Shown here piece after piece: positions 2,298 to 33,720 of a DNA stretch of 35,199 nucleotides. Source of the DNA: Verrucomicrobiota bacterium (GTDB lineage: Bacteria; Verrucomicrobiota; Verrucomicrobiia; Chthoniobacterales; UBA10450). Made by a program: the position numbers and the translations under genes. The notes under the pieces are model-generated. The model was given only the letters and a program-made list of their open reading frames with translations, did not search any database and was not told where the DNA came from. Position 1 is the first letter of the stretch, and each line of letters starts with the position of its first letter. Location: positions 1 through 35,199 of the forward strand of contig QHOS01000031.1 of NCBI GenBank assembly GCA_003219415.1, given 5' to 3'.

Positions 2298-2350
2298 CTC
2301 TACCTCCAAAGAGGGAGCCCGCATCACCGCGTTGGTGGTACAACAAAATC
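2298..2350 (+). promoter_or_regulatory. Two-hairpin leader element, copy D
   Basis: Most divergent of four related copies. Hairpin 1 is CTC-ta-CCTC, loop caaa, GAGG-GAG (2298-2317), seven pairs with a two-base bulge. Hairpin 2 is ATCACC, loop gcgtt, GGTGGT (2323-2339), six pairs including one G-T. The AAAATC box is at 2345-2350. The distance from the first G of GAGGGA (2311) to AAAATC is 34 nt, the same as in copies A and B. The box starts 58 nt before the ATG at 2403. CCAAAGAGGGA is shared exactly with copy B. Its function is unknown, and the constant spacing suggests a 5' leader. Confidence 0.6.
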
Positions 2351-2402
2351 CTACTAACGCGCCTGAGTGGCGCCCATTACGGCGTCCGTAGCGTGAACGG
2401 CA

Positions 2403-3404
2403 ATGAATACAAGAATAAAAAATGGAGGTGAAGTTACGAAAAAGAGTTTGTTTGCATCTATTTTTATGGTCCTCCCGTTCGTATTCGTCTGCTTTGGGCT
2501 TTCGCCCGCAGTGCGAGCGGTTGTCCCGGCCCCGGACGGCGGCTATCCGGGCTTCAACACGGCTGAGGGGACTAATGCCCTGTTCAGCCTTACAAGCGGC
2601 GTTGGAAACAACGCCATTGGTTTTCAGGCGCTCTTGCACAACACAACCGGAATCCACAACACGGCCGATGGTTTTGCCGCGATGTCTAGAACCACGACGG
2701 GACAGCATAACACGGCCACCGGTGACGAGGCGCTCGGCAGCAATACAACCGGCAGTTTCAACACAGCGGATGGCGCTCATTCGTTGGAAAACAACACGGG
2801 CACCGGCAACACGGCCTTAGGCTTTGCGGCCGGCGCCAACGTCACCACGGCCACTAACGTTATCTGTCTCGGGGCCGGGGTCCTTGGTGCGAACGAAAAC
2901 AACAGCTGCTTTATCGGCAACGTCTTCAATCGAACCTCCGCTGTGGGAGCGGCGGTTTTCGTTAATTCAAGTGGTAAGCTCGGCACGATTACTTCCTCGA
3001 GGCGGTTCAAAGAAGAGATTGAGCCGATGGCACAGGCCAGCGAAGGACTCTTTGCGCTCAAACCAGTGACTTTCCGTTACAAGAAAGGGATAGATCCCCA
3101 GAGGATTCCACAGTTTGGGCTGGTGGCCGAGGACGTGGAAGCGGTCAATCCGGACTTGGTGGTCCGTGATGAGGAGGGCAAAGTGAACACCGTGCGCTAC
3201 GACGCAGTGAACGCGATGCTACTGAACGAATTCCTCAAAGAGCATCGCAAAGTGGAAGAATTGAGCTCCATGGTGGCGGAGCAGCGCAAGGAGGTTAATG
3301 CTCTTGCAGCGGCTGTGAAAGAGCAGGCTGCGCAAGTCCAGAAGGTGAGCGCGCAGGTTGAGCTAAGCAAAGCTGAGCCACAAATGGTCTTTAACAAGCA
3401 GTAG
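2403..3404 (+). CDS. Exported protein with beta-roll-type repeats and C-terminal S74 intramolecular chaperone domain
   Basis: 333 aa. The signal peptide has a hydrophobic core at about residues 18-33 and a likely cut after AVRA (residue 39). Residues 60-146 carry four or five repeats of about 21 residues with the pattern N-T-A-x-G-x-x-A-L, like left-handed beta-roll or YadA-head repeats. From about residue 190 a Peptidase_S74 (endosialidase-type chaperone) domain follows. Its entry motif SSRRFKEEI corresponds to the S-D-x-R-x-K-E-x-I motif where autocleavage occurs in phage proteins, with Ser198 or Ser199 as candidate. Residues 275-322 form a coiled coil, suggesting a trimer. It is probably a cell-surface fibre. 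Start choice is ambiguous: a good GGAGG at 2424-2428 stands 7 nt before an ACG codon (2436), not before the ATG at 2403. The leader element spacing favours 2403. Confidence 0.85.
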   Translation: MNTRIKNGGEVTKKSLFASIFMVLPFVFVCFGLSPAVRAVVPAPDGGYPGFNTAEGTNALFSLTSGVGNNAIGFQALLHNTTGIHNTADGFAAMSRTTTGQHNTATGDEALGSNTTGSFNTADGAHSLENNTGTGNTALGFAAGANVTTATNVICLGAGVLGANENNSCFIGNVFNRTSAVGAAVFVNSSGKLGTITSSRRFKEEIEPMAQASEGLFALKPVTFRYKKGIDPQRIPQFGLVAEDVEAVNPDLVVRDEEGKVNTVRYDAVNAMLLNEFLKEHRKVEELSSMVAEQRKEVNALAAAVKEQAAQVQKVSAQVELSKAEPQMVFNKQ

Positions 3405-3445
3405 CGCGCATTTGCTGCTGCGCAATCACAGCATTCGATCCGCCT

Positions 3446-3459
3446 CGGCTAAGAAGCCG
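3446..3459 (+). terminator. Weak hairpin after the S74 gene
   Basis: CGGCT, loop aaga, AGCCG forms a five-pair hairpin 42 nt after the stop codon. No T-run follows, so it is only a weak candidate for a terminator or mRNA 3' stabiliser. Confidence 0.25.
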
Positions 3460-3550
3460 CCCGACTCTTCGTACGTAACCTATCTCAAATAAAGAAGCGC
3501 ATCACCTCACAGGCAGCATGACAACATCCCATGGCCGGCCCAGGAGAAAA

Positions 3551-4090
3551 ATGGCTATGACTAATTTGGTGTCGACACTTTGCCTCGTCCCGTTGTGCAG
3601 TGCGATCTTTCTCGGCTCAGGCATACTAGCTGCAGCACAGAAGTCCGGCCTAGATGGAACCTACATCGTAGACGAAACCGACAGCGACAATGTGAATGAG
3701 GTGATCGAGGAGGCGGTGGGAAAGCTGAACTTCCTGACGCGAGATATCGCTCGAGGGCGCCTCAAGAAACTGAACCCCGCTTACCGCCAGGTAGCCATCA
3801 CTTCCTCTCCGAATGAAATCAGCGTCACCGTGGATAACCAGCCGCCGTTACGGACACCGGCGAAGGGTGCACCTGTCGCTTGGGTTGGTCCTGACGGAGG
3901 AAAAGTGAACGCTAGCATGCAGTTGGCAGGCCGGCGTTTGGCGCAGACATTCACGTCAGCAGACGGGCGCAGAGTTAATGATTACACTCTAAGCCCTGAT
4001 GGCCGGACGCTGACAATGCAAGTGACAGAAACGAGCCCCCGACTGTCTCAAACTATCACGTACAAACAAGTTTACAGACGAGTCTCCTGA
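3551..4090 (+). CDS. Exported protein of unknown function (about 179 aa)
   Basis: The ATG at 3551 is chosen because AGGAG (3542-3546) lies just upstream. An earlier in-frame ATG at 3518 would add 11 residues that spoil the signal peptide. Residues 5-29 form a signal sequence ending near LAAAQ. The mature part is small and mostly beta-strand-like. A conserved-looking helical section (DNVNEVIEEAVGKLNFLTRD) is followed by alternating strands, a calycin-like or lipocalin-like layout, but I do not recognise the family. There are no cysteines in the mature part and no catalytic motif. It has its own spacing on both sides, and no copy of the leader element was found before it. The stop codon overlaps the start of a structured 3' segment. 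Confidence 0.75.
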   Translation: MAMTNLVSTLCLVPLCSAIFLGSGILAAAQKSGLDGTYIVDETDSDNVNEVIEEAVGKLNFLTRDIARGRLKKLNPAYRQVAITSSPNEISVTVDNQPPLRTPAKGAPVAWVGPDGGKVNASMQLAGRRLAQTFTSADGRRVNDYTLSPDGRTLTMQVTETSPRLSQTITYKQVYRRVS

Positions 4091-4152
4091 AAAGGATGCC
4101 GACGGATCTGCTGTCCGAGTAAGGGCACGACCCGTGGTTTGTCATCCTTTTC
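4089..4152 (+). ncRNA. Structured segment closed by a 10-bp perfect stem (possible 3'-UTR RNA or terminator)
   Basis: GAAAAGGATG (4089-4098) is perfectly complementary to CATCCTTTTC (4143-4152). Inside are CGGA/TCCG (4103-4106 with 4114-4117) and CACG, loop acc, CGTG (4126-4136), giving a three-way-junction layout. It begins inside the stop codon of the preceding gene. The 3' strand ends in TTTTC, so a terminator is one reading and a small RNA another. The pairing is visible in the sequence; the function is inference. Confidence 0.45.
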
Positions 4153-4404
4153 GCCTCAATGATTTCTTACGTCTACATTCCCGATCCGTGGTACGCTCCC
4201 GTGTAGTCCCGGGGTCCCAGGTGATACTCCCTCATTCGAAATAGCTTTAAACAGCAACGACGTAACCGGAGTCGGATAAATGTGCATTCACAATACTGGT
4301 CGTACGGATAGTAATAGTTGATCAAGGGAGTTGAGGAACATCTGCCAGCGCGCACCGGGTTTTGATCCAGAGGTGGCTAGAAGGAACGCCCATTCTACTC
4401 AGTG
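4153..4404. other. Gene-free stretch
   Basis: There is no convincing gene. A 60-codon minus-strand frame at 4173-4355 has no plausible start context and low-complexity composition, and was not accepted. Nothing else is recognisable before the leader element at 4405. Confidence 0.4.
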
Positions 4405-4458
4405 AGTCTCCCTCAAAGGGGATAAGCCTGCTTCCCTCACCTGCAGCAGAAGAAAATC
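4405..4458 (+). promoter_or_regulatory. Two-hairpin leader element, copy C
   Basis: Hairpin 1 has the same geometry as copies A and B: G-T-C, bulged T, C-C, a seven-base loop, then G-G-G-A-T (4406-4423), with a G-T pair where A and B have C-G and G-C. Hairpin 2 is CTGCT/AGCAG (4428-4432 with 4445-4449) with a longer loop. The AAAATC box is at 4453-4458, followed by TCAC as in copy A. The box starts 54 nt before the ATG at 4507. Confidence 0.65.
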
Positions 4459-4506
4459 TCACGAGTGCAGACTGGCCGCCATAGGATTCCGGCTGAAGGG
4501 TGAATT

Positions 4507-4947
4507 ATGAAAATATTAAATCACGTTTCAAGTAAACTAATCATGGTTGCAATCGCATGCAGCTTTGCTGCAGGCACCCCCATTCAGGCGCGAGTGGCCA
4601 GATCGAACTCTGCCTCGGCCCGTTCTGAGGATGATGCTCGTTTGATTGTTTCCAGGGCAGCCAATTTTGGGACTTTCCAGTACCTCATCTTGTTTGTCGA
4701 TGGTGTACAGGTTGCGGATTTGGGGCTTGGTCAGAATTACGATGCGGTGTTGCCCCCCGGGCAGCATGTCTTGTCGGTAAGCACGACTCCACAGGGCTAT
4801 CGACGTACACCGCCGACTCGACGTCGCGTTAACCTAGAACCCGGCGAGACGTACGCATTTACCGCGTTCTGGAAAAACTCTTACAAGGCTTACCTCTATA
4901 GGAACGGCAGCTCCAAGAGAATCATCACACCGAGCGACCCAGGCTAA
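4507..4947 (+). CDS. Small exported protein, DUF2846-like
   Basis: 146 aa. Signal peptide at residues 1-29 (cut near IQARVA). The mature domain has the strand pattern of DUF2846/PEGA-like modules: LILFVDGVQVADL (a named surface strand with VDG), then LPPGQHVLSV (the turn typical of such domains), then PGETYAFTAFW and YKAYLYRNG. Domains of this kind are usually periplasmic or surface-bound and their ligands are unknown. The assignment is by pattern only. GAAGGG stands about 6-10 nt before the ATG. The leader element copy C lies just upstream. The next gene begins 13 nt after the stop, so co-transcription is likely. Confidence 0.78.
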   Translation: MKILNHVSSKLIMVAIACSFAAGTPIQARVARSNSASARSEDDARLIVSRAANFGTFQYLILFVDGVQVADLGLGQNYDAVLPPGQHVLSVSTTPQGYRRTPPTRRRVNLEPGETYAFTAFWKNSYKAYLYRNGSSKRIITPSDPG

Positions 4948-4960
4948 GAGGAGAAAACCG

Positions 4961-5368
4961 ATGAGCTCTACCGGTGATGACCCTTCCGGCTACACAAGGC
5001 GTAGGTTTCTAACACTTAGCATCGCTTCGGGCGCATCAGCATCGCTTTTGCTTTCTCGTACCTCTGCTGAGGGTGATAAGCTACCACCATCAAAACCGAC
5101 TACATACAATGGCAGCACCGATCCTTACCCGATACCCTGGCTGGATAAGAACGGCAGTCATAATCAGCCGGCTGGCCCACAGTTGGAGCCGTCGCACATC
5201 TACCATTTCAAAGGGCGCGTCGCCCGATGCGCCAATTTCGCAGGCATGGGCACTGACAATAAAGGTAACCGAATTGCCTTTGGCACCCCCACAACCGACT
5301 ACGGATTTATGCAGGGAGAATACTTCGCGGGACGCGCTGCGCAGATGGGGGCATTCACTCACATATGA
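4961..5368 (+). CDS. Tat-exported protein of unknown function
   Basis: 135 aa. The N-terminus has a twin-arginine motif (TRRRFLTLS, residues 12-20), then a hydrophobic run and a likely cut near residue 36, which predicts folded export. The mature part holds a compact domain (from YHFKGRVA, about residue 83, to GAFTHI at the end), with G-x-G-T-D-N-K-G-N-R and GTPTTDYGFMQGEY as striking motifs. I recall similar short uncharacterised proteins but cannot name a family. GAGGAG (4948-4953) precedes the ATG at good spacing. The stop TGA (5366-5368) overlaps an ATG (5365-5367) that starts the next, broken, gene. Reading through this TGA would continue in the same frame into that gene's coding region. 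Confidence 0.8.
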   Translation: MSSTGDDPSGYTRRRFLTLSIASGASASLLLSRTSAEGDKLPPSKPTTYNGSTDPYPIPWLDKNGSHNQPAGPQLEPSHIYHFKGRVARCANFAGMGTDNKGNRIAFGTPTTDYGFMQGEYFAGRAAQMGAFTHI

Positions 5369-5812
5369 CTGACATTATTTCAGGGGCAGGCTGCTCCTCA
5401 AAATCAGATTCACGATTTTCATCCTCCAATTGCGCCTTCGGGGCTGTATTGGGTCGTTCCAATTCCCAAAGGGGACCTTGTCATTAGCCCTGACGGGCAG
5501 ACCGCAACGCTCGAGATGGAGAATGTTGCGGTTGTTGATCAACCGAAGTGGCCCCGCCTTGATGCCGTAGGCACACCAGGCATTATGGATTTCAGGATGA
5601 TTTGGAAGGCGACGGATGAAAAAATCATTTATGATGATCCACAGAAGCAATTCCGGGTGGAAGGTTACCGCGCTACCGCACAGCTTGAGGCGCAGGTTAA
5701 GGTACCATCAATAGATTTCTCGTGGAAATCCGACCCTTTATCGACGTCGCAGGCCCATTTTGCGGTCATCGGGGATGAAGTGAATGGCCGATACTACACT
5801 CCAGTGAGGTAG
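5365..5812 (+). pseudogene. Translationally coupled partner of the Tat protein, frameshifted at a G4 run
   Basis: An ATG overlapping the previous stop (ATGA) begins MTDIISG, and this frame soon closes. The frame that looks coding from 5387 to 5812 (QAAPQNQIHDFHPPIAPSG and onward to YYTPVR) is displaced by one base. Removing one G from GGGG at 5383-5386 would join them into one protein of about 148 aa. The likely causes are a real frameshift mutation, a sequencing error, or +1 slippage on GGG-G. The G run is also the 5' arm of a six-pair hairpin (5383-5388 with 5392-5397). An internal ATG at 5516 could still give a 98-aa fragment. The motif IHDFHPP with following strands is conserved-looking, but the function is unknown. 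Confidence 0.55.
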
Positions 5813-5933
5813 TTTGTTATTGGCTGTGACGGCCGGCCGCAGGTTTGTCGCTGTAAGCAAAGCGGCTAGATTCGTTGTCGACTGTGCGGGGATGCTTCAG
5901 CGCCCGGCGAGTTGTGCAAGTGGAACCCTAACG

Positions 5934-6632
5934 ATGACATCGTGGCTCACACGCTTCCGTAGCAGCTGGTTGCTACCGGCTGTCTTGAGCACGACGGCAG
6001 GCGCAGTCGATGTTATCGGCTTTCTTGCGCTTGGCGGGTTGTTCACCGCCCACATCACCGGGAACGTGGTAATCGTGGCCGCGCATTACGTAACCGGTGG
6101 TTTTAGTCAGATCGGCCCGCTCCTGGCGGTCCCGGTCTTCATGGCAGTGCTAGGCCTGGTGACGCTGGCGTCCGACGCGATTGTGCGGACCGGGATGTCC
6201 CCACTGCGACCGTTGCTGCTGCTGCAAACTGCACTCCTCATCGGGTTTCTAGGACTGGGTGTCGGTTTTGGCCGCTTCCCCGATGCCAACAGTTCGATGG
6301 CTGTGCTCGCGGGCATGCTCGGAGTCGCCGCCATGGCGACCCAGAATGTGCTGGTGAAGCTCGCCCTCAAAGGCGTGCCGTCTACCGCGGTAATGACAAC
6401 GAACATCACTCAACTGACTGTCGACCTGGCGACGCTCGCCCGCAGTAGGAGAAACCCCCACGAGCTCGCCCAAGCCGGACGCCGGGCACGCATGACATTG
6501 CCCTGCATAATTGGGTTCGTCGTCGGCTGTGCCGCTGGGGCCGCCTTGGAAGTTAAGTTTAGCCTCTGGGCGCTAGTGCTACCAGTCGCTCTCGCTGTAA
6601 TCGCCATCCCCCTGGGCGAAACGCAAGAGTGA
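5934..6632 (+). CDS. DUF1275 (YoaK-family) multi-pass membrane protein
   Basis: About 232 aa from the ATG at 5934. An earlier in-frame start at 5892 would add 14 residues of poor quality. The protein opens with LPAVLSTTAGAVDVIGFL and FTAHITGNVV, the two blocks that mark DUF1275: a small-residue helix with an acidic residue, then the T-G-N motif. Six hydrophobic segments follow, with GVAAMATQNVLVKLALKGVPSTAVMTTN matching the second family block, here cited by its limits A-M-A-T-Q-N and T-T-N. The biochemical role is not known; transport of small molecules is usually guessed. It stands alone, with leader element copy A starting three bases after its stop codon. Confidence 0.88.
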   Translation: MTSWLTRFRSSWLLPAVLSTTAGAVDVIGFLALGGLFTAHITGNVVIVAAHYVTGGFSQIGPLLAVPVFMAVLGLVTLASDAIVRTGMSPLRPLLLLQTALLIGFLGLGVGFGRFPDANSSMAVLAGMLGVAAMATQNVLVKLALKGVPSTAVMTTNITQLTVDLATLARSRRNPHELAQAGRRARMTLPCIIGFVVGCAAGAALEVKFSLWALVLPVALAVIAIPLGETQE

Positions 6633-6634
6633 TA

Positions 6635-6703
6635 GCTCTTCCGAATGAGGGAGCGTAGATCACTTCTCAAGTGCTGTTTAAAAATCTCACGCCTACCCGA
6701 TAG
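6635..6703 (+). promoter_or_regulatory. Two-hairpin leader element, copy A
   Basis: Aligns to copy B over 69 nt without a gap, 49 identities by hand count. Hairpin 1 is GCTC, bulged T, TC, seven-base loop, GG-GAGC (6635-6654). Hairpin 2 is CACTT, loop ctc, AAGTG (6661-6673), a perfect five-pair stem. The AAAATC box is at 6681-6686. The stem changes relative to copy B are compensatory (C-G for G-C in hairpin 1; A-T for G-C and T-A for C-G in hairpin 2). The box starts 56 nt before the ATG at 6737. Confidence 0.7.
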
Positions 6704-6736
6704 CTCTGAGCTAACCAATTGCAATATCGTGGTAGT

Positions 6737-7102
6737 ATGGACAATCCACGGTTTAATGACGGCCCCACGCGGCGCGCGATCTCGCGTTCTACGACCGGAG
6801 CGTATTCCCAACGGATTCGAATGCCTGAACTCGGCTGCCGCGCTGGTTCAGCAAGCTCAGGGCAAAAGAGAATTTTTGCGATCGTCTCGCCACCTATCGC
6901 AACTCCAGTTGAGGGCAAAACGATGCGACGCATTGTCATTTTCGACAATCATCCCGATAGCCTGCGTCTGGTCTTACAGTTCGGTCTAGATCCAGACAGT
7001 GATGAGGCTGCCTCGCGACGGGAAATGCGGACGTCCATCACTTGTGGGTTGATTTTGATCGCAATGCTCGTAGCAGCACTGCTTTGGCCGTTGTGTTGGT
7101 AA
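6737..7102 (+). CDS. Small protein with C-terminal membrane segment, unknown function
   Basis: 121 aa from the ATG at 6737, chosen because the leader element upstream keeps its usual distance to this codon. The first 60 residues are Arg/Ser rich and not recognisable. From residue 63 the sequence becomes convincing: MRRIVIFDNHPDSLRLVLQ, then a linker, then one hydrophobic helix (about residues 104-120) ending in LCW. A second start at 6923, with GAGGG (6911-6915) at good spacing, would give just this 59-aa part, and it may be the true product. I believe similar small proteins recur in related genomes, but I cannot name a function. Confidence 0.5.
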   Translation: MDNPRFNDGPTRRAISRSTTGAYSQRIRMPELGCRAGSASSGQKRIFAIVSPPIATPVEGKTMRRIVIFDNHPDSLRLVLQFGLDPDSDEAASRREMRTSITCGLILIAMLVAALLWPLCW

Positions 7103-7123
7103 CTGGCACAATAGCCGAAACTG

Positions 7124-7192
7124 GGTCTCCCCAAAGAGGGACCGCAGAGCGCCTCTCGGGCGTTGTTTGAAAATCACACATTTACCCAGTAG
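7124..7192 (+). promoter_or_regulatory. Two-hairpin leader element, copy B (sigma factor leader)
   Basis: Hairpin 1 is GGTC, bulged T, CC, seven-base loop, GG-GACC (7124-7143). Hairpin 2 is CGCCT, loop ctc, GGGCG (7150-7162). The AAAATC box is at 7170-7175. The box starts 57 nt before the ATG (7227) of the sigma-70-type gene. The pairing matches copy A with different bases, which is what selection on RNA structure would leave. No T-run follows hairpin 2, so it is not a plain terminator of the preceding gene. Confidence 0.7.
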
Positions 7193-7226
7193 CGGCGGAT
7201 TCGCTCCAGCCACTACAGTTGCAGGC

Positions 7227-8075
7227 ATGAACGAAAGCAATGCGGTGCTCAACAGATATTTGCTGGAGATCGGACGAATGCCTCTTCTGTCCCCCGATCA
7301 AGAGACCGAACTCGGGCGGCGAATCCAAGACGGTGACGCGGCAGCGCGCGAGCGGATGATCAACGCAAACCTGCGGCTCGTTGTAACCATCGCACGCGAT
7401 TACATCAATCTCGGTCTGCCCCTGGTTGACCTGATTTCGGAAGGAAACATCGGATTAATGGAAGCAGTCGATCGATTCGACCCGGAAAAAGGCGTCAAGC
7501 TAAGCACCTATGCGATTTGGTGGATCAAGCGGGCGATCAAAAACGCACTTGCCAATCAGAGCAAAACGATCCGATTGCCGGCGAAAACGATCGAGAAAAT
7601 TAGTAGAATGCGTCGCGTTTCAGCGCAAATGGGCAACGAGCTCGGTCGCGAACCGACTGAGGGCGAACTCGGTGAAGAGCTGGGGATTGCCACTGAAAAA
7701 GTGGCGCGACTGAGAAGTATTGGCCTGCGTCCCGAATCGCTTGACGCGCCTGTTGGCGACGATGAAGCGACCGAACTTGGCGAAAAAGTTCCAGATGAAC
7801 AAGCGCAAACTCCTTTCGAATCACTGCGCGAGAAGGATTTCTCGGACCAGATCAATCGGGTTCTCAAAAACCTCAACAAACGCGACGCAACGATCATCGC
7901 AGAGCGTTTCGGGCTAAACGGCACGACAGCAAAACCGCTTGAACAGGTTGCCGAGATAGTCGGGGTAACGCGCGAACGCGTTCGGCAGTTGGAACTAATC
8001 GCACTCGCGAAATTGCGTCGCGCCTTCAAGAAGCATCTCGGCGCTCTGGAATCTGAAGTTTTCGTAGCAGCCTAG
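7227..8075 (+). CDS. RNA polymerase sigma factor, sigma-70 group 2 type
   Basis: 282 aa. It has region 1.2 (NRYLLEIGRMPLLSPDQE, residues 9-26). Region 2 follows with NLRLVV, the core-binding DLISEGNIGLMEAVDRFD and the -10-binding FDPEKGVKLSTYAIWWIKRAI (to about 105). Region 3 is about residues 115-190. Region 4.2 is a helix-turn-helix, PLEQVAEIVGVTRERVRQLE (about 237-256). It lacks the long acidic region 1.1 of a housekeeping RpoD, so it is more likely an RpoS/RpoH-like or other group 2 alternative factor; which one cannot be told here. The ATG at 7227 is chosen because family alignment starts there; the open frame continues upstream through the leader element. The structured leader suggests post-transcriptional control. 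Confidence 0.92.
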   Translation: MNESNAVLNRYLLEIGRMPLLSPDQETELGRRIQDGDAAARERMINANLRLVVTIARDYINLGLPLVDLISEGNIGLMEAVDRFDPEKGVKLSTYAIWWIKRAIKNALANQSKTIRLPAKTIEKISRMRRVSAQMGNELGREPTEGELGEELGIATEKVARLRSIGLRPESLDAPVGDDEATELGEKVPDEQAQTPFESLREKDFSDQINRVLKNLNKRDATIIAERFGLNGTTAKPLEQVAEIVGVTRERVRQLELIALAKLRRAFKKHLGALESEVFVAA

Positions 8076-8235: not shown

Positions 8236-8317
8236 GCCAGGGTGGCGAAATTGGCAGACGCGCCAGACTTAGGATCTGGTGGAGAAATCCTTAGGGGTTC
8301 GAGTCCCCTCCCTGGCA
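8236..8317 (+). tRNA. tRNA-Leu (anticodon UAG)
   Basis: The acceptor stem GCCAGGG pairs with CCCTGGC, with discriminator A at 8317. The D arm contains the class-typical GGCGAAATTGGCAGACGC. The anticodon stem is CCAGA/TCTGG around the loop CTTAGGA, which gives anticodon TAG for CUA codons. A long variable arm (TGGAGAAATCCTTA region) marks a class II tRNA, as expected for Leu. The T arm has GGTTCGAGTCC. CCA is not encoded. Confidence 0.97.
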
Positions 8318-8352
8318 CTCACCGTAAAAGCAAACGCTCAACGCTCAACCTC

Positions 8353-8401
8353 CAACTCTCAACGCCCAATTCAGACGCCGTTAGTTGGACGTTGGGAGTT
8401 G
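8353..8401. repeat. Imperfect inverted repeat after the tRNA gene
   Basis: The arm at 8353-8369 (CAACTCTCAACGCCCAA) pairs with 8385-8401 (TTGGACGTTGGGAGTTG) with 15 of 17 matches and a 15-nt loop. The left flank also holds CTCAACG/CTCAACC short tandem units (8338-8350). There is no T-run. It could act as a tRNA transcript end or be a dispersed palindromic repeat. Confidence 0.6.
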
Positions 8402-8425
8402 AGCGGTCGACGTTTAAATCGCGTG

Positions 8426-22151: not shown

Positions 22152-22955
22152 ATGTTTGGGACTTGGGGTAAATTGGCTGGTGTTTGGCTCAGTGCGCTTG
22201 CTGCTGTCGCCTTACCGCGTGGCAGCGCGGCGGCCGTAGAGTTCCGTTTCGATCGCGACACCTTCGCGTTTCAAAACGCCACCGTGCTGAAATACCACGA
22301 CGGGATCGCGTTTTTCCGACCGAAGTCGGAAGTGAGTGATCCTGCCAACAGCTATACTCGCCGCTGCTTCGTCATGACCCGCACGGCGATGCAGTTCCGC
22401 AAATTCGCCCGTTTCAATCCACACGGCGTTCCATTAAACGATCAGGAACTCGCACGGCGCATTCGTGCTGTCGCGCGCCGGAAGCCTTGGCTCGAAGTAT
22501 TGCCGGAAAATCGGCGAATCGTCTTTCCAGGCTACTCGAATCTACGTGAGATAAGCAAACCCCACACTCAAGTCTTCGAGAACAATATCGGCAGCGGCTT
22601 CATGAGTTATTTTCGGCCGAGCAATATCCGCATGGTCTTCCTGGACAGTAAAGGATATCAGGAGAAAACGCACCAGAACCTCGATGCGTCCCTCGCGCGT
22701 GGTGACACGTTCGTGGCTTTTCTTACCACTTATCCAAAAATGAGTATAAACCACGCCGTGCTCATTTATGGCCGGAAAAAAAGTCGCCCCGGAGACGAAC
22801 TCGAACATTATTTGGTTTATGATCCAAACCATGCCGAAGCGCCGCGTGAGCTAACATGGTCGCCTCGCGAATGTGCCTTTGCTTATCAGAAAGACATAGA
22901 CTTCATCGGTGGATTCGTTCGGGTTTACCAGGCTTACGACAAGCCGTTGCAGTGA
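22152..22955 (+). CDS. Exported protein of unknown function, paralogue 1 (papain-like-fold motifs)
   Basis: 267 aa. Signal peptide at residues 1-27 (cut near GSAAA). The mature part contains YTRRCFVMTRTAMQF, FPGYSNLREI, FVAFLTTYPKMSINHAVLIYG, and HYLVYDPNHAEAPRELTW. A cysteine near residue 74, His in I-N-H-A-V and the Y-D-P-N motif are the arrangement seen in papain-like or BtrH/C39-like cysteine enzymes, so hydrolase or acyltransferase activity is possible. That is only inference; I recall an uncharacterised family with these blocks in Verrucomicrobia and myxobacteria. The second paralogue follows after 22 bp. The start ATG at 22152 comes 5 bp after the accA stop. Confidence 0.75.
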   Translation: MFGTWGKLAGVWLSALAAVALPRGSAAAVEFRFDRDTFAFQNATVLKYHDGIAFFRPKSEVSDPANSYTRRCFVMTRTAMQFRKFARFNPHGVPLNDQELARRIRAVARRKPWLEVLPENRRIVFPGYSNLREISKPHTQVFENNIGSGFMSYFRPSNIRMVFLDSKGYQEKTHQNLDASLARGDTFVAFLTTYPKMSINHAVLIYGRKKSRPGDELEHYLVYDPNHAEAPRELTWSPRECAFAYQKDIDFIGGFVRVYQAYDKPLQ

Positions 22956-22977
22956 AAACGATGGACGCGTTCTTGAT

Positions 22978-23784
22978 ATGATTCCCGGTAATTCGCGTAC
23001 AGCGGCAGGTTTTTGGCAGCTCGGCGCTTTCCTAGCTCTCGTCCTTCTACGAAGCAGCGCGGCAGCGTCCGATTTTCGCTTCGGCCGCGATACGGTCGGC
23101 TTTGCCAACGCAACCGTCTTCGAGTATCGCGAAGGTCATCCTTCTTTGCGGCGGCAAAGAGAGAAGGGAGAGCCGAAAAGGTACACTCGCCGCTGTTTTG
23201 TCCTATGCCGTACGACGATGCAGTTTCACAAGTTCGCTCGCTTCGATCCGCACGCCCCTCCGTTGGACGACAACGCGTTGGCCGCTCGCATTCGAAATGT
23301 CACCCGCCGGGCGGCTTGGGAAAAGCCATTGCCGACAAATCAGCGCGTCGTCTTCCCAGGCTACGCTAACTTGCGCGCAATGAGCGATGCGCGCCGCGAA
23401 GTTCTGCGAAGAAATATCGGCCTTGGCTGGCCGACTTACGTTCGGCTCGGGAATTTCCGGATGCTTTTCGATCACGACTCTAATTACCACAAGGAAACCC
23501 AAGCCAACCTCGATGCAGCTTTGGCGCGCGGCGAGTTATTTGTCGGTTTTCTCACAACCTATCCTCGTCTCAGCATCAATCACGCGGTCTTGGTCTACGA
23601 ACGAAAATCAGCCTCTCTGAATGACGGAATTGATCACTATCTCGTTTACGATCCCAATCATCCGGAATCACCGCGTGAGCTCACCTGGTCCTCCCGCGAC
23701 CGTGCTTTCGCATATCAAAAAGATTGGGATTTCATCGGCGGCTTCGTTCGCGTTTATCAAATTTACGGCAAGTGGCTGCAGTAA
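22978..23784 (+). CDS. Exported protein of unknown function, paralogue 2
   Basis: 268 aa. It aligns along its whole length with the preceding gene: YTRRCFVLCRTTMQFHKFARF, VVFPGYANLRAM, FVGFLTTYPRLSINHAVLVYE, HYLVYDPNHPESPRELTW and DFIGGFVRVYQIYG. The central region differs most. The putative Cys (RRCF), His (INHA) and YDPN residues are kept in both copies, so both may be active. The ATG at 22978 is preferred over a GTG in frame at 22909 because it gives a signal peptide (residues 1-30, cut near SSAAAS). Gene duplication in tandem is the simplest origin. Confidence 0.75.
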   Translation: MIPGNSRTAAGFWQLGAFLALVLLRSSAAASDFRFGRDTVGFANATVFEYREGHPSLRRQREKGEPKRYTRRCFVLCRTTMQFHKFARFDPHAPPLDDNALAARIRNVTRRAAWEKPLPTNQRVVFPGYANLRAMSDARREVLRRNIGLGWPTYVRLGNFRMLFDHDSNYHKETQANLDAALARGELFVGFLTTYPRLSINHAVLVYERKSASLNDGIDHYLVYDPNHPESPRELTWSSRDRAFAYQKDWDFIGGFVRVYQIYGKWLQ

Positions 23785-23802
23785 AGACGATTCTCTAGAG
23801 GG

Positions 23803-31833: not shown

Positions 31834-33195
31834 TTAACGCTGAAGGGAACTATCAATGAAGGATATGGTCTGGCGGAGGTTGTCTTGTTCGGCCATCCGT
31901 TTCTTCACCAGTTTGCATGCATGCAATACCGTACCGTGATCGCGTCCTCCGAATGCGTCGCCAATTTCATTCAAGGACGCCTTGGTAAGTTCGCGCGCAA
32001 GAAACATCGCCACCTGCCGCGGAAAGGCGATGCTGGCGGGGCGCCGCTTGCTTGTCATATCGGCCACGCGCACATCAAAATGCTCAGCCACGCGTCGCTG
32101 AATTTGTTCGATTGTGATCGAATGGCGTCCTTCCTCCTGCAAAATATCCTTTAGCAAATGTTCCACGACCTCCTGGGTCAGTTCCTTGCCGCTGAGTGAT
32201 GCAAACGAAGCCACACGCATGAGCGCGCCTTCAAGCCGACGCACATTTGTGCGAATACGGCTTGCAAGAAATTGAAAAACCTCATCGCGCAATCTGATCT
32301 GCATGCCGTGCGCTTTTTTCCGCAAGATCGCCATGCGCGTCTCGATGTCCGGCGGTTGGAGCTCGGCGGTGAGTCCCCATTCAAAGCGTGAGACCAGCCG
32401 GTGCTCCAGATTTGCAATCTCCGAAGCAGGCCGGTCGCTGGAGAGCACAATCTGTTTATGTCCGTCGAAAAGCGTATTGAAGGTGTGAAAGAATTCTTCC
32501 TGGGAACGCTCTTTGCCTCCAAGAAATTGGATGTCGTCTATCAGGAGGAGATCGACCTGGCGATAACGCTTTCGGAATTTGACCAGATTACTGTGCTGGA
32601 TCGCGTCGATGAACTCGTTGATGAACAGTTCACTCGAGACATAAATCACCTTTACGTTTTTCTTCTTCGCCCAAACGTATTGGCCGATGGCCTGCATCAG
32701 GTGGGTCTTGCCAAGACCGACACCGCCATAAATGAACAGCGGGTTGTATGTGCGCGCGGGCGCCTGCGCTACGGCAAGAGCGGCAGCGTGCGCAATTTCA
32801 TTGTTCGGACCGACCACGAAAGATTCGAACGTGTTCCGTGGATTGAGCCCAGGCACGGTTCCGCCTGGTTTTGTGTTCGCGGACGGTTCGGGTAAAATTT
32901 TCTCCAGCGGCGCGGCATCCTCGACGGGCATCTGCACGCTCGTTCCCGACGGAGAGCAGAATTTTACCGGACGCGGGCCACCGAGCGTCGTTACAATGGC
33001 AGTCTGCAACGCGGGCATATAATTACTTTCTATCCAAAACTGATAGATGTTGTTTGGAACGCGAAGAGTGAGCGATTTGTCTTTCGCCTCTACAAGTTCG
33101 ACGGCCGAAAACCAGCGTTTAAAGCTGTCGGCGCTGATCTGTGGTTTAAGCGCAGCTGATAATTGCTGCCACAGCTGAGCGCATTTCTTGTCCAT
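31834..33195 (-). CDS. dnaA: Chromosomal replication initiator protein DnaA
   Basis: 453 aa from the ATG whose complement is at 33193-33195. Domain I (residues 1-75, LWQQLSAALKPQISADSFKRW) mediates self-contact. Domain II is a Pro-rich linker. Domain III begins with NTFESFVVGPNNEIAHAAAL and has Walker A IYGGVGLGKTH and Walker B LLLIDDIQFLGGKE. Domain IV binds DnaA boxes with GGRDHGTVLHACKLVKK as signature. Binds ATP and opens the origin. The AT-rich region upstream contains DnaA-box-like sites, which supports origin proximity and autoregulation. Confidence 0.98.
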   Translation of the reverse strand: MDKKCAQLWQQLSAALKPQISADSFKRWFSAVELVEAKDKSLTLRVPNNIYQFWIESNYMPALQTAIVTTLGGPRPVKFCSPSGTSVQMPVEDAAPLEKILPEPSANTKPGGTVPGLNPRNTFESFVVGPNNEIAHAAALAVAQAPARTYNPLFIYGGVGLGKTHLMQAIGQYVWAKKKNVKVIYVSSELFINEFIDAIQHSNLVKFRKRYRQVDLLLIDDIQFLGGKERSQEEFFHTFNTLFDGHKQIVLSSDRPASEIANLEHRLVSRFEWGLTAELQPPDIETRMAILRKKAHGMQIRLRDEVFQFLASRIRTNVRRLEGALMRVASFASLSGKELTQEVVEHLLKDILQEEGRHSITIEQIQRRVAEHFDVRVADMTSKRRPASIAFPRQVAMFLARELTKASLNEIGDAFGGRDHGTVLHACKLVKKRMAEQDNLRQTISFIDSSLQR

Positions 33196-33720
33196 AGCAG
33201 ACTTGTTAACAGTGTTACACAATCGCCACACTCGCTGATCGCGCGGAAAATCGCTGGGTAAAACCCAGGCAAAGTCGAGCTAATCGCCAGCGTAACTTCC
33301 GGGAGGAATCCTGAAGAAAACGGTCAAAAGTTCGTAAATACGAGGGAAAATGGACCGCGCTGAACGTTAGCGATTGATTCGATGCCCTAAGGTGACGCTG
33401 CATGTTCTGTCGTTGTTCCGGAGCCTTCTGCGTGTCGTTCATTCTCGCTGCTAAGAATTTCTCAGAAATGTTCACAACTTATTCACATGCGTTCTTGTTC
33501 TGCCTCGCCAGCGGGCTAGAGACTAGAAATCGCTTTCAAAATCGACAAGAAAAAAATGAACTTTATTTGAAATTTTATTTTCATCGCGGCCAAAAATTTT
33601 CTTGACTAGAAAAAGAAGCGCGCGTGTCCGAGAGAAAACAAAAAGAACATCCCGCTGCTGATTTTTGGCGCGGGCTCGCCCATAACAGGAGAGCAATCGC
33701 CGTGAGGGAGCGATCAATTG
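33196..33720. other. Probable replication origin (oriC) region
   Basis: Gene-free segment upstream of dnaA. It holds TTATTCACA at 33479-33487, one mismatch from the DnaA box TTATCCACA, directly after TGTTCACAA (33469-33477). It also holds a hairpin CTGGGT, loop aaa, ACCCAG (33254-33268) and an A/T-rich block at 33536-33605 suited for unwinding. TTGTGTAAC near the dnaA start (complement of about 33214-33222) may be another weak box. The site count is low and the identification rests mostly on gene context. A 67-codon open frame over the same region is not accepted as a gene. Confidence 0.55.

Follow-up and report, generated by a model that had tools for sequence, protein, structure and literature searches.

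The repeated element that precedes four genes in this Verrucomicrobiota sequence is probably a DNA promoter-operator module, at which an activator would bind three dyads and transcription would begin, without a leader, at the ATG. This reading is favoured over that of an RNA structure by the dyads, a -10 box, a fixed geometry and the absence of covariation. The element belongs to a large and apparently undescribed family; open-licence papers yielded no description of the motif. The sequence analysed here, referred to as the window, is 35,199 nt long and is contig 156 among the 253 contigs of a 3.6 Mb genome. In the following, positions within the element are counted from the first A of its AAAATC box, which is set to 0.

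All four segments named in the preliminary description are present in the window, on its forward strand, with a shared layout in which 28 bases separate GAGGGA from AAAATCNYAC. Searched as GAGGGA-N22-32-AAAATCNYAC, this layout matches three times in the window, compared with 0.00 matches expected from shuffles, and six times in the whole genome, compared with none for the reversed control. The remaining copy, B, was recovered with a looser pattern allowing three mismatches, along with about seven more credible copies. The claimed distances from AAAATC to the ATG were confirmed (58, 54, 56 and 57 nt for copies A to D), as was the spacing of 34 nt between GAGGGA and AAAATC in copies A and D; in copy C, for which 36 nt had been given, it is 34 nt as well.

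The three-dyad region of copy A lies at 2298–2372, with AAAATC at 2345. It is followed by a -10-like hexamer, TAGCGT (2389–2394), which starts 14 nt before the ATG at 2403 of a gene for an exported protein with an S74-peptidase domain (2403–3404). Copy B (4406–4480, AAAATC at 4453), more degenerate than the other three, is followed by a weak -10-like hexamer, AAGGGT (4496–4501), and by the gene for a small exported protein (4507–4947), a homologue of which also stands behind an element in genome G031. Copy C (6634–6708, AAAATC at 6681) and its hexamer TATCGT (6725–6730) precede the gene for a 121-aa protein (6737–7102) with homologues behind elements in genomes G001 and G024. Lastly, copy D (7123–7197, AAAATC at 7170) and its hexamer TACAGT (7214–7219) precede the gene for a group-2 sigma factor with regions 1.2, 2, 3 and 4 (7227–8075). 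These hexamers were read from the sequence; those of A, C and D occupy +44 to +49. Between copies B and C, two ORFs (4961–5368 and 5516–5812) resemble a single broken gene for a Tat-exported protein, as might result from a frameshift, pseudogene formation or an assembly error.

Further copies, the search for which had been named beforehand as a test, turned up in large numbers with the looser pattern and with profiles, the first of which was built from 14 genomic copies and the second from sequence only. Besides copy B, these searches contributed about 15–20 copies that the strict pattern had missed, and the genome of the window has about 20 copies in all. Genome-wide counts, which come from the profile searches, range from 0 to 35 across 35 genomes of the genus, several of which contain marginal matches or none. 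Family-wide, the second profile found matches in 48 of 83 genomes and in 8 of 14 genera; the profile found no element in the 130 genomes from elsewhere in the order, and none accompanied the sigma homologues of other Verrucomicrobiota and other phyla. In well-assembled genomes, the copies cluster in one island, with, for instance, seven copies within 20 kb in G073 and about nine within 37 kb in G055.

The preliminary description was right in two further respects: the element recurs before unrelated genes, with a constant spacing to their start codons, and it defines a regulon with a sigma factor among its members. Recurrent targets are small proteins without Pfam matches. Others include small membrane proteins, glycine-rich and other exported proteins, the group-2 sigma factor, a ferritin-like (Dps-type) protein, an SRPBCC protein, aldo/keto reductases, 3-hydroxyisobutyrate-dehydrogenase-like proteins, an MFS transporter and an RND pump; a gene for a molybdopterin oxidoreductase (formate-dehydrogenase-like) is located in the same islands. 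The composition of this set suggests stress or stationary-phase genes. One small-protein family among the targets, of about 70 residues, without a Pfam match and featuring the sequence HPEWxxPNGDCPTCESYESRLAELLG, is encoded behind many elements (at L057, L029, L135, L202, L206, L208 and others).

The anatomy of the motif was derived from 119 non-redundant sites of the genus. It spans about 75 bp, from -47 to +28, is essentially ungapped and has sharp edges, with almost no information content upstream of -48. The self-similarity of the profile is maximal at a lag of 24 (z 3.64; 1.46 for the next best lag), and the motif comprises three dyads of consensus TnnCnCnnnnGnGnnA with an exact 24-bp period, each with a C and a G separated by four bases and flanked by C/G and, for the most part, by T/A. 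Their centres at -36.5, -12.5 and +11.5 rank 1, 4 and 8 among 118 possible centres and correspond to -91.5, -67.5 and -43.5 relative to the ATG; dyad 1 is more symmetric than dyads 2 and 3. Such even spacing of dyads would suit a DNA-binding protein that acts as a dimer. The dyads abut a weak -35 region, TRGCNR, and the proximal dyad adjoins the -35, as does the proximal one of the repeated dyads in NarL/FixJ (DevR-like) promoters. Two other explanations of the conserved bases were rejected. The logo contains TGGCA but no TTGC at the spacing required of a sigma-54 promoter (TGGCAC-N5-TTGC), and a conserved upstream peptide ORF is at odds with stops in the three frames at 44, 72 and 62 of the 119 sites and with a logo that has no wobble pattern.

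Downstream of the dyads, the ATG stands exactly at +55 in 48 of the 119 sites and at +54 to +56 in 77, while ATG occurs about one to three times at any other position. When an EM search was run on the region from +26 to +53 for any motif, it returned [G/T]AnCnT (A 88%, T 94%) at about +42 to +48, with a log-likelihood of 88.6 compared with 17–22 in shuffles. In the modal class, this hexamer, summarised as [G/T]AnnnT, occupies -12 to -7 from the ATG, with the A at -11 and the T at -7. A sigma-70 -10 element would have its two best-conserved bases at just these places if transcription started at the A of the ATG, which is the spacing expected of a leaderless promoter. About 20 of the 28 sites with an ATG elsewhere or farther away keep the hexamer in place. 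The same holds in hold-out genera, whose -10 region the search model did not cover: of 39 sites, 19 have a TAnnnT that begins at +42 to +44, compared with 0.6 expected. Shine-Dalgarno sequences are not enriched before the element genes over their own shuffles, but the raw energies of these genes do not differ from those of other genes. Judged by the place of the -10 hexamer, the mRNAs behind the elements are probably leaderless, in which case the constant distance of about 55 nt arises because the promoter geometry fixes it.

What might bind the dyads is suggested by the islands themselves. In several genera, they encode a NarL/FixJ response regulator (receiver and GerE domains) beside a PAS/GAF HisKA_3 kinase, and this pair is often directly followed by an element and then the ferritin-like gene. 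The regulator orthologues are mostly 80–93% identical. They are present in 28 of the 83 family genomes, and all 28 carriers have elements (hypergeometric P = 1.6e-9, a value that ignores relatedness). Among genomes at least 90% complete, 15 have both, 2 the element only, none the regulator only and 13 neither (Fisher P = 1.8e-6, relatedness again ignored). As the regulator and many elements share an island, this co-occurrence is partly linkage. Judged by gene neighbourhood and co-occurrence, this response regulator is the best candidate for the activator. We propose that it would bind the three dyads cooperatively and recruit RNA polymerase to the weak -35 (TRGCNR) and the -10 ([G/T]AnnnT). 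Transcription would then start at the A of the ATG or within 1–3 nt of it, yielding a leaderless mRNA, and a stress or dormancy-like regulon that includes the group-2 sigma factor would be switched on; that the regulation is positive is our inference.

The strongest competitor to this proposal keeps the DNA module and replaces the bound factor by another response regulator or a core transcription factor. The candidate regulator has no recognisable copy in 20 of the 48 element-positive genomes, and lowering the cut-off to 1e-35 did not reveal one in twelve of them. Some of these bins are incomplete, which may explain some of the absences, yet G047 (95% complete, 8 elements) and G031 remain awkward cases. 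On the other hand, the perfect one-way association of the regulator with elements, as well as the fact that regulator, element and ferritin-like gene have stayed next to one another in several genera, speak against a different factor, which we regard as unlikely, albeit worth keeping in mind. As for a substitute of the same type, no NarL-type regulator was found on the element contigs listed for five regulator-less genomes.

Less probable still is that the island group-2 sigma factor itself reads these promoters as a class of its own, with the long motif as an extended recognition sequence and no separate activator. The sigma factor in the window is an island paralogue of a core sigma factor found in nearly every family genome, and its nearest named homologues are from Verrucomicrobiota. 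Its own gene is among those preceded by an element, both in the window and in several genomes, and island copies of the sigma factor occur in many element-positive genomes, including the regulator-less G047 and G031. However, the conserved sequence, with its 24-bp repeat, reaches back 100 bp from the ATG, whereas a sigma factor contacts about 35 bp, which counts against direct reading. Moreover, the related core sigma is also present in element-free genomes, and the -10 box is an ordinary TAnnnT.

The preliminary description had instead proposed a structured RNA leader with two hairpins, possibly a riboregulator or thermosensor. Such a leader would be transcribed from an upstream promoter, and its hairpins would control translation of the gene 55 nt downstream. 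The preliminary description had also stated that no named RNA class has these features, and indeed the four window copies gave no Rfam match even at an E-value of 10. As to the leader itself, every copy can fold, the arms of hairpin 1 are complementary in most copies and the folding energy is slightly below that of shuffles (mean z -0.84 for the sense and -0.58 for the antisense strand). The covarying pairs, however, which had been noted in four copies, vanished once more sequences were compared. With the stems originally proposed, 61.9% of the cells were paired in the 14 genomic copies, compared with 60.2 ± 2.0% in shuffled columns, and a better register of hairpin 1 paired no more than its own shuffles. 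RNAalifold retained three pairs, none of them compensated, and a helix scan of the 119 sites found no run of pairs with a systematic Watson-Crick excess. Hairpin 1 resembled a stem because it coincides with the best-formed DNA dyad. Furthermore, no conserved promoter is found upstream of -47, and the conserved -10 box sits between element and ATG, so that the predicted transcript would start at or next to the ATG and the element would lie upstream of the mRNA. Elements also occur in head-to-head pairs with 21–87 bp between their edges; at L119, 21 bp separate two oppositely oriented elements at their outer edges, which leaves no room for separate promoters upstream of RNA leaders. For lack of covariation and given the position of the -10 box, both of which bear on conditions that the preliminary description itself had set for its refutation, the RNA leader is most likely wrong, and we give it very little credence.

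A mobile repeat or recombination site (such as an integron-like attC or a transposon end) that precedes genes by chance could account for the clustering in islands and the copy numbers of 0–35, but is hardly credible in view of the fixed distance to -10 and ATG, the divergent pairs, the absence of an extended palindrome and viral contigs (IMG/VR) without matches above chance. For the latter, the 40 pattern matches were near a rough chance estimate and included one weak profile match; a viral origin was accordingly rejected.

The proposed activator-dependent DNA module is best compared with the dormancy promoters of Mycobacterium tuberculosis, where the NarL-type regulator DevR/DosR binds cooperatively to closely packed sites, the proximal of which overlaps the -35 (PMC3029386). 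Both share a NarL-subfamily response regulator (here a candidate), packed sites with a proximal one at the -35 (here predicted sites, at about -43.5), divergent shared promoters and stress-type targets. The DevR/DosR kinase is of the GAF-HisKA_3 type, as is the partner kinase of our candidate. By analogy, the proximal dyad would act as the proximal DevR/DosR site does. The Verrucomicrobiota module differs in lineage and dyad sequence, and in that its array is rigid, with exactly three sites spaced by 24 bp, and fused to a putative leaderless start.

Promoters of leaderless mRNAs, whose -10 box closely precedes the start codon, are known from, for example, Actinobacteria and Deinococcus-Thermus. 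They resemble the present ones in having TAnnnT at -12 to -7 of the ATG and perhaps in lacking a clear Shine-Dalgarno enrichment; in the module described here, unlike in them, a single constant operator array stands upstream of dozens of genes. Likewise, group-2 or RpoS-like general stress regulons share with it a group-2 sigma factor, a ferritin-like (Dps-type) protein and reductases as targets, but here the operator array, and not a sigma consensus alone, defines the regulon. The module is probably a rigid, leaderless variant of an activator-dependent promoter within one family of Verrucomicrobiota. More tentatively, and at somewhat less than an even chance, it marks a stress or dormancy regulon that resembles that of DosR and has not been described before. 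In such a regulon, a single two-component system would drive a second sigma factor as well as dozens of leaderless genes, by way of a rigid operator that has three sites phased at 24 bp and is fused to the start codon.

In this way, a whole regulon becomes readable from sequence alone in little-studied bacteria, with transcript starts predicted nearly to the base, and small proteins, several of them without a Pfam match, can be connected with a sigma factor and with a sensor kinase and response regulator. The case also advises caution, as elements at a fixed distance before start codons can be leaderless promoters and not RNA leaders.

The window holds some further features. Right after tRNA-Leu (8236–8317), a long imperfect inverted repeat at 8328–8412 matched an animal microRNA model by chance. 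The dnaA gene lies on the minus strand (31834–33231), and opposite to it, at 32679–32730, the AsdA antisense RNA family is matched below threshold, which probably reflects conserved dnaA coding sequence only. Finally, the segments 22794–22962 and 23623–23791 form a direct repeat of 169 nt with 75% identity.
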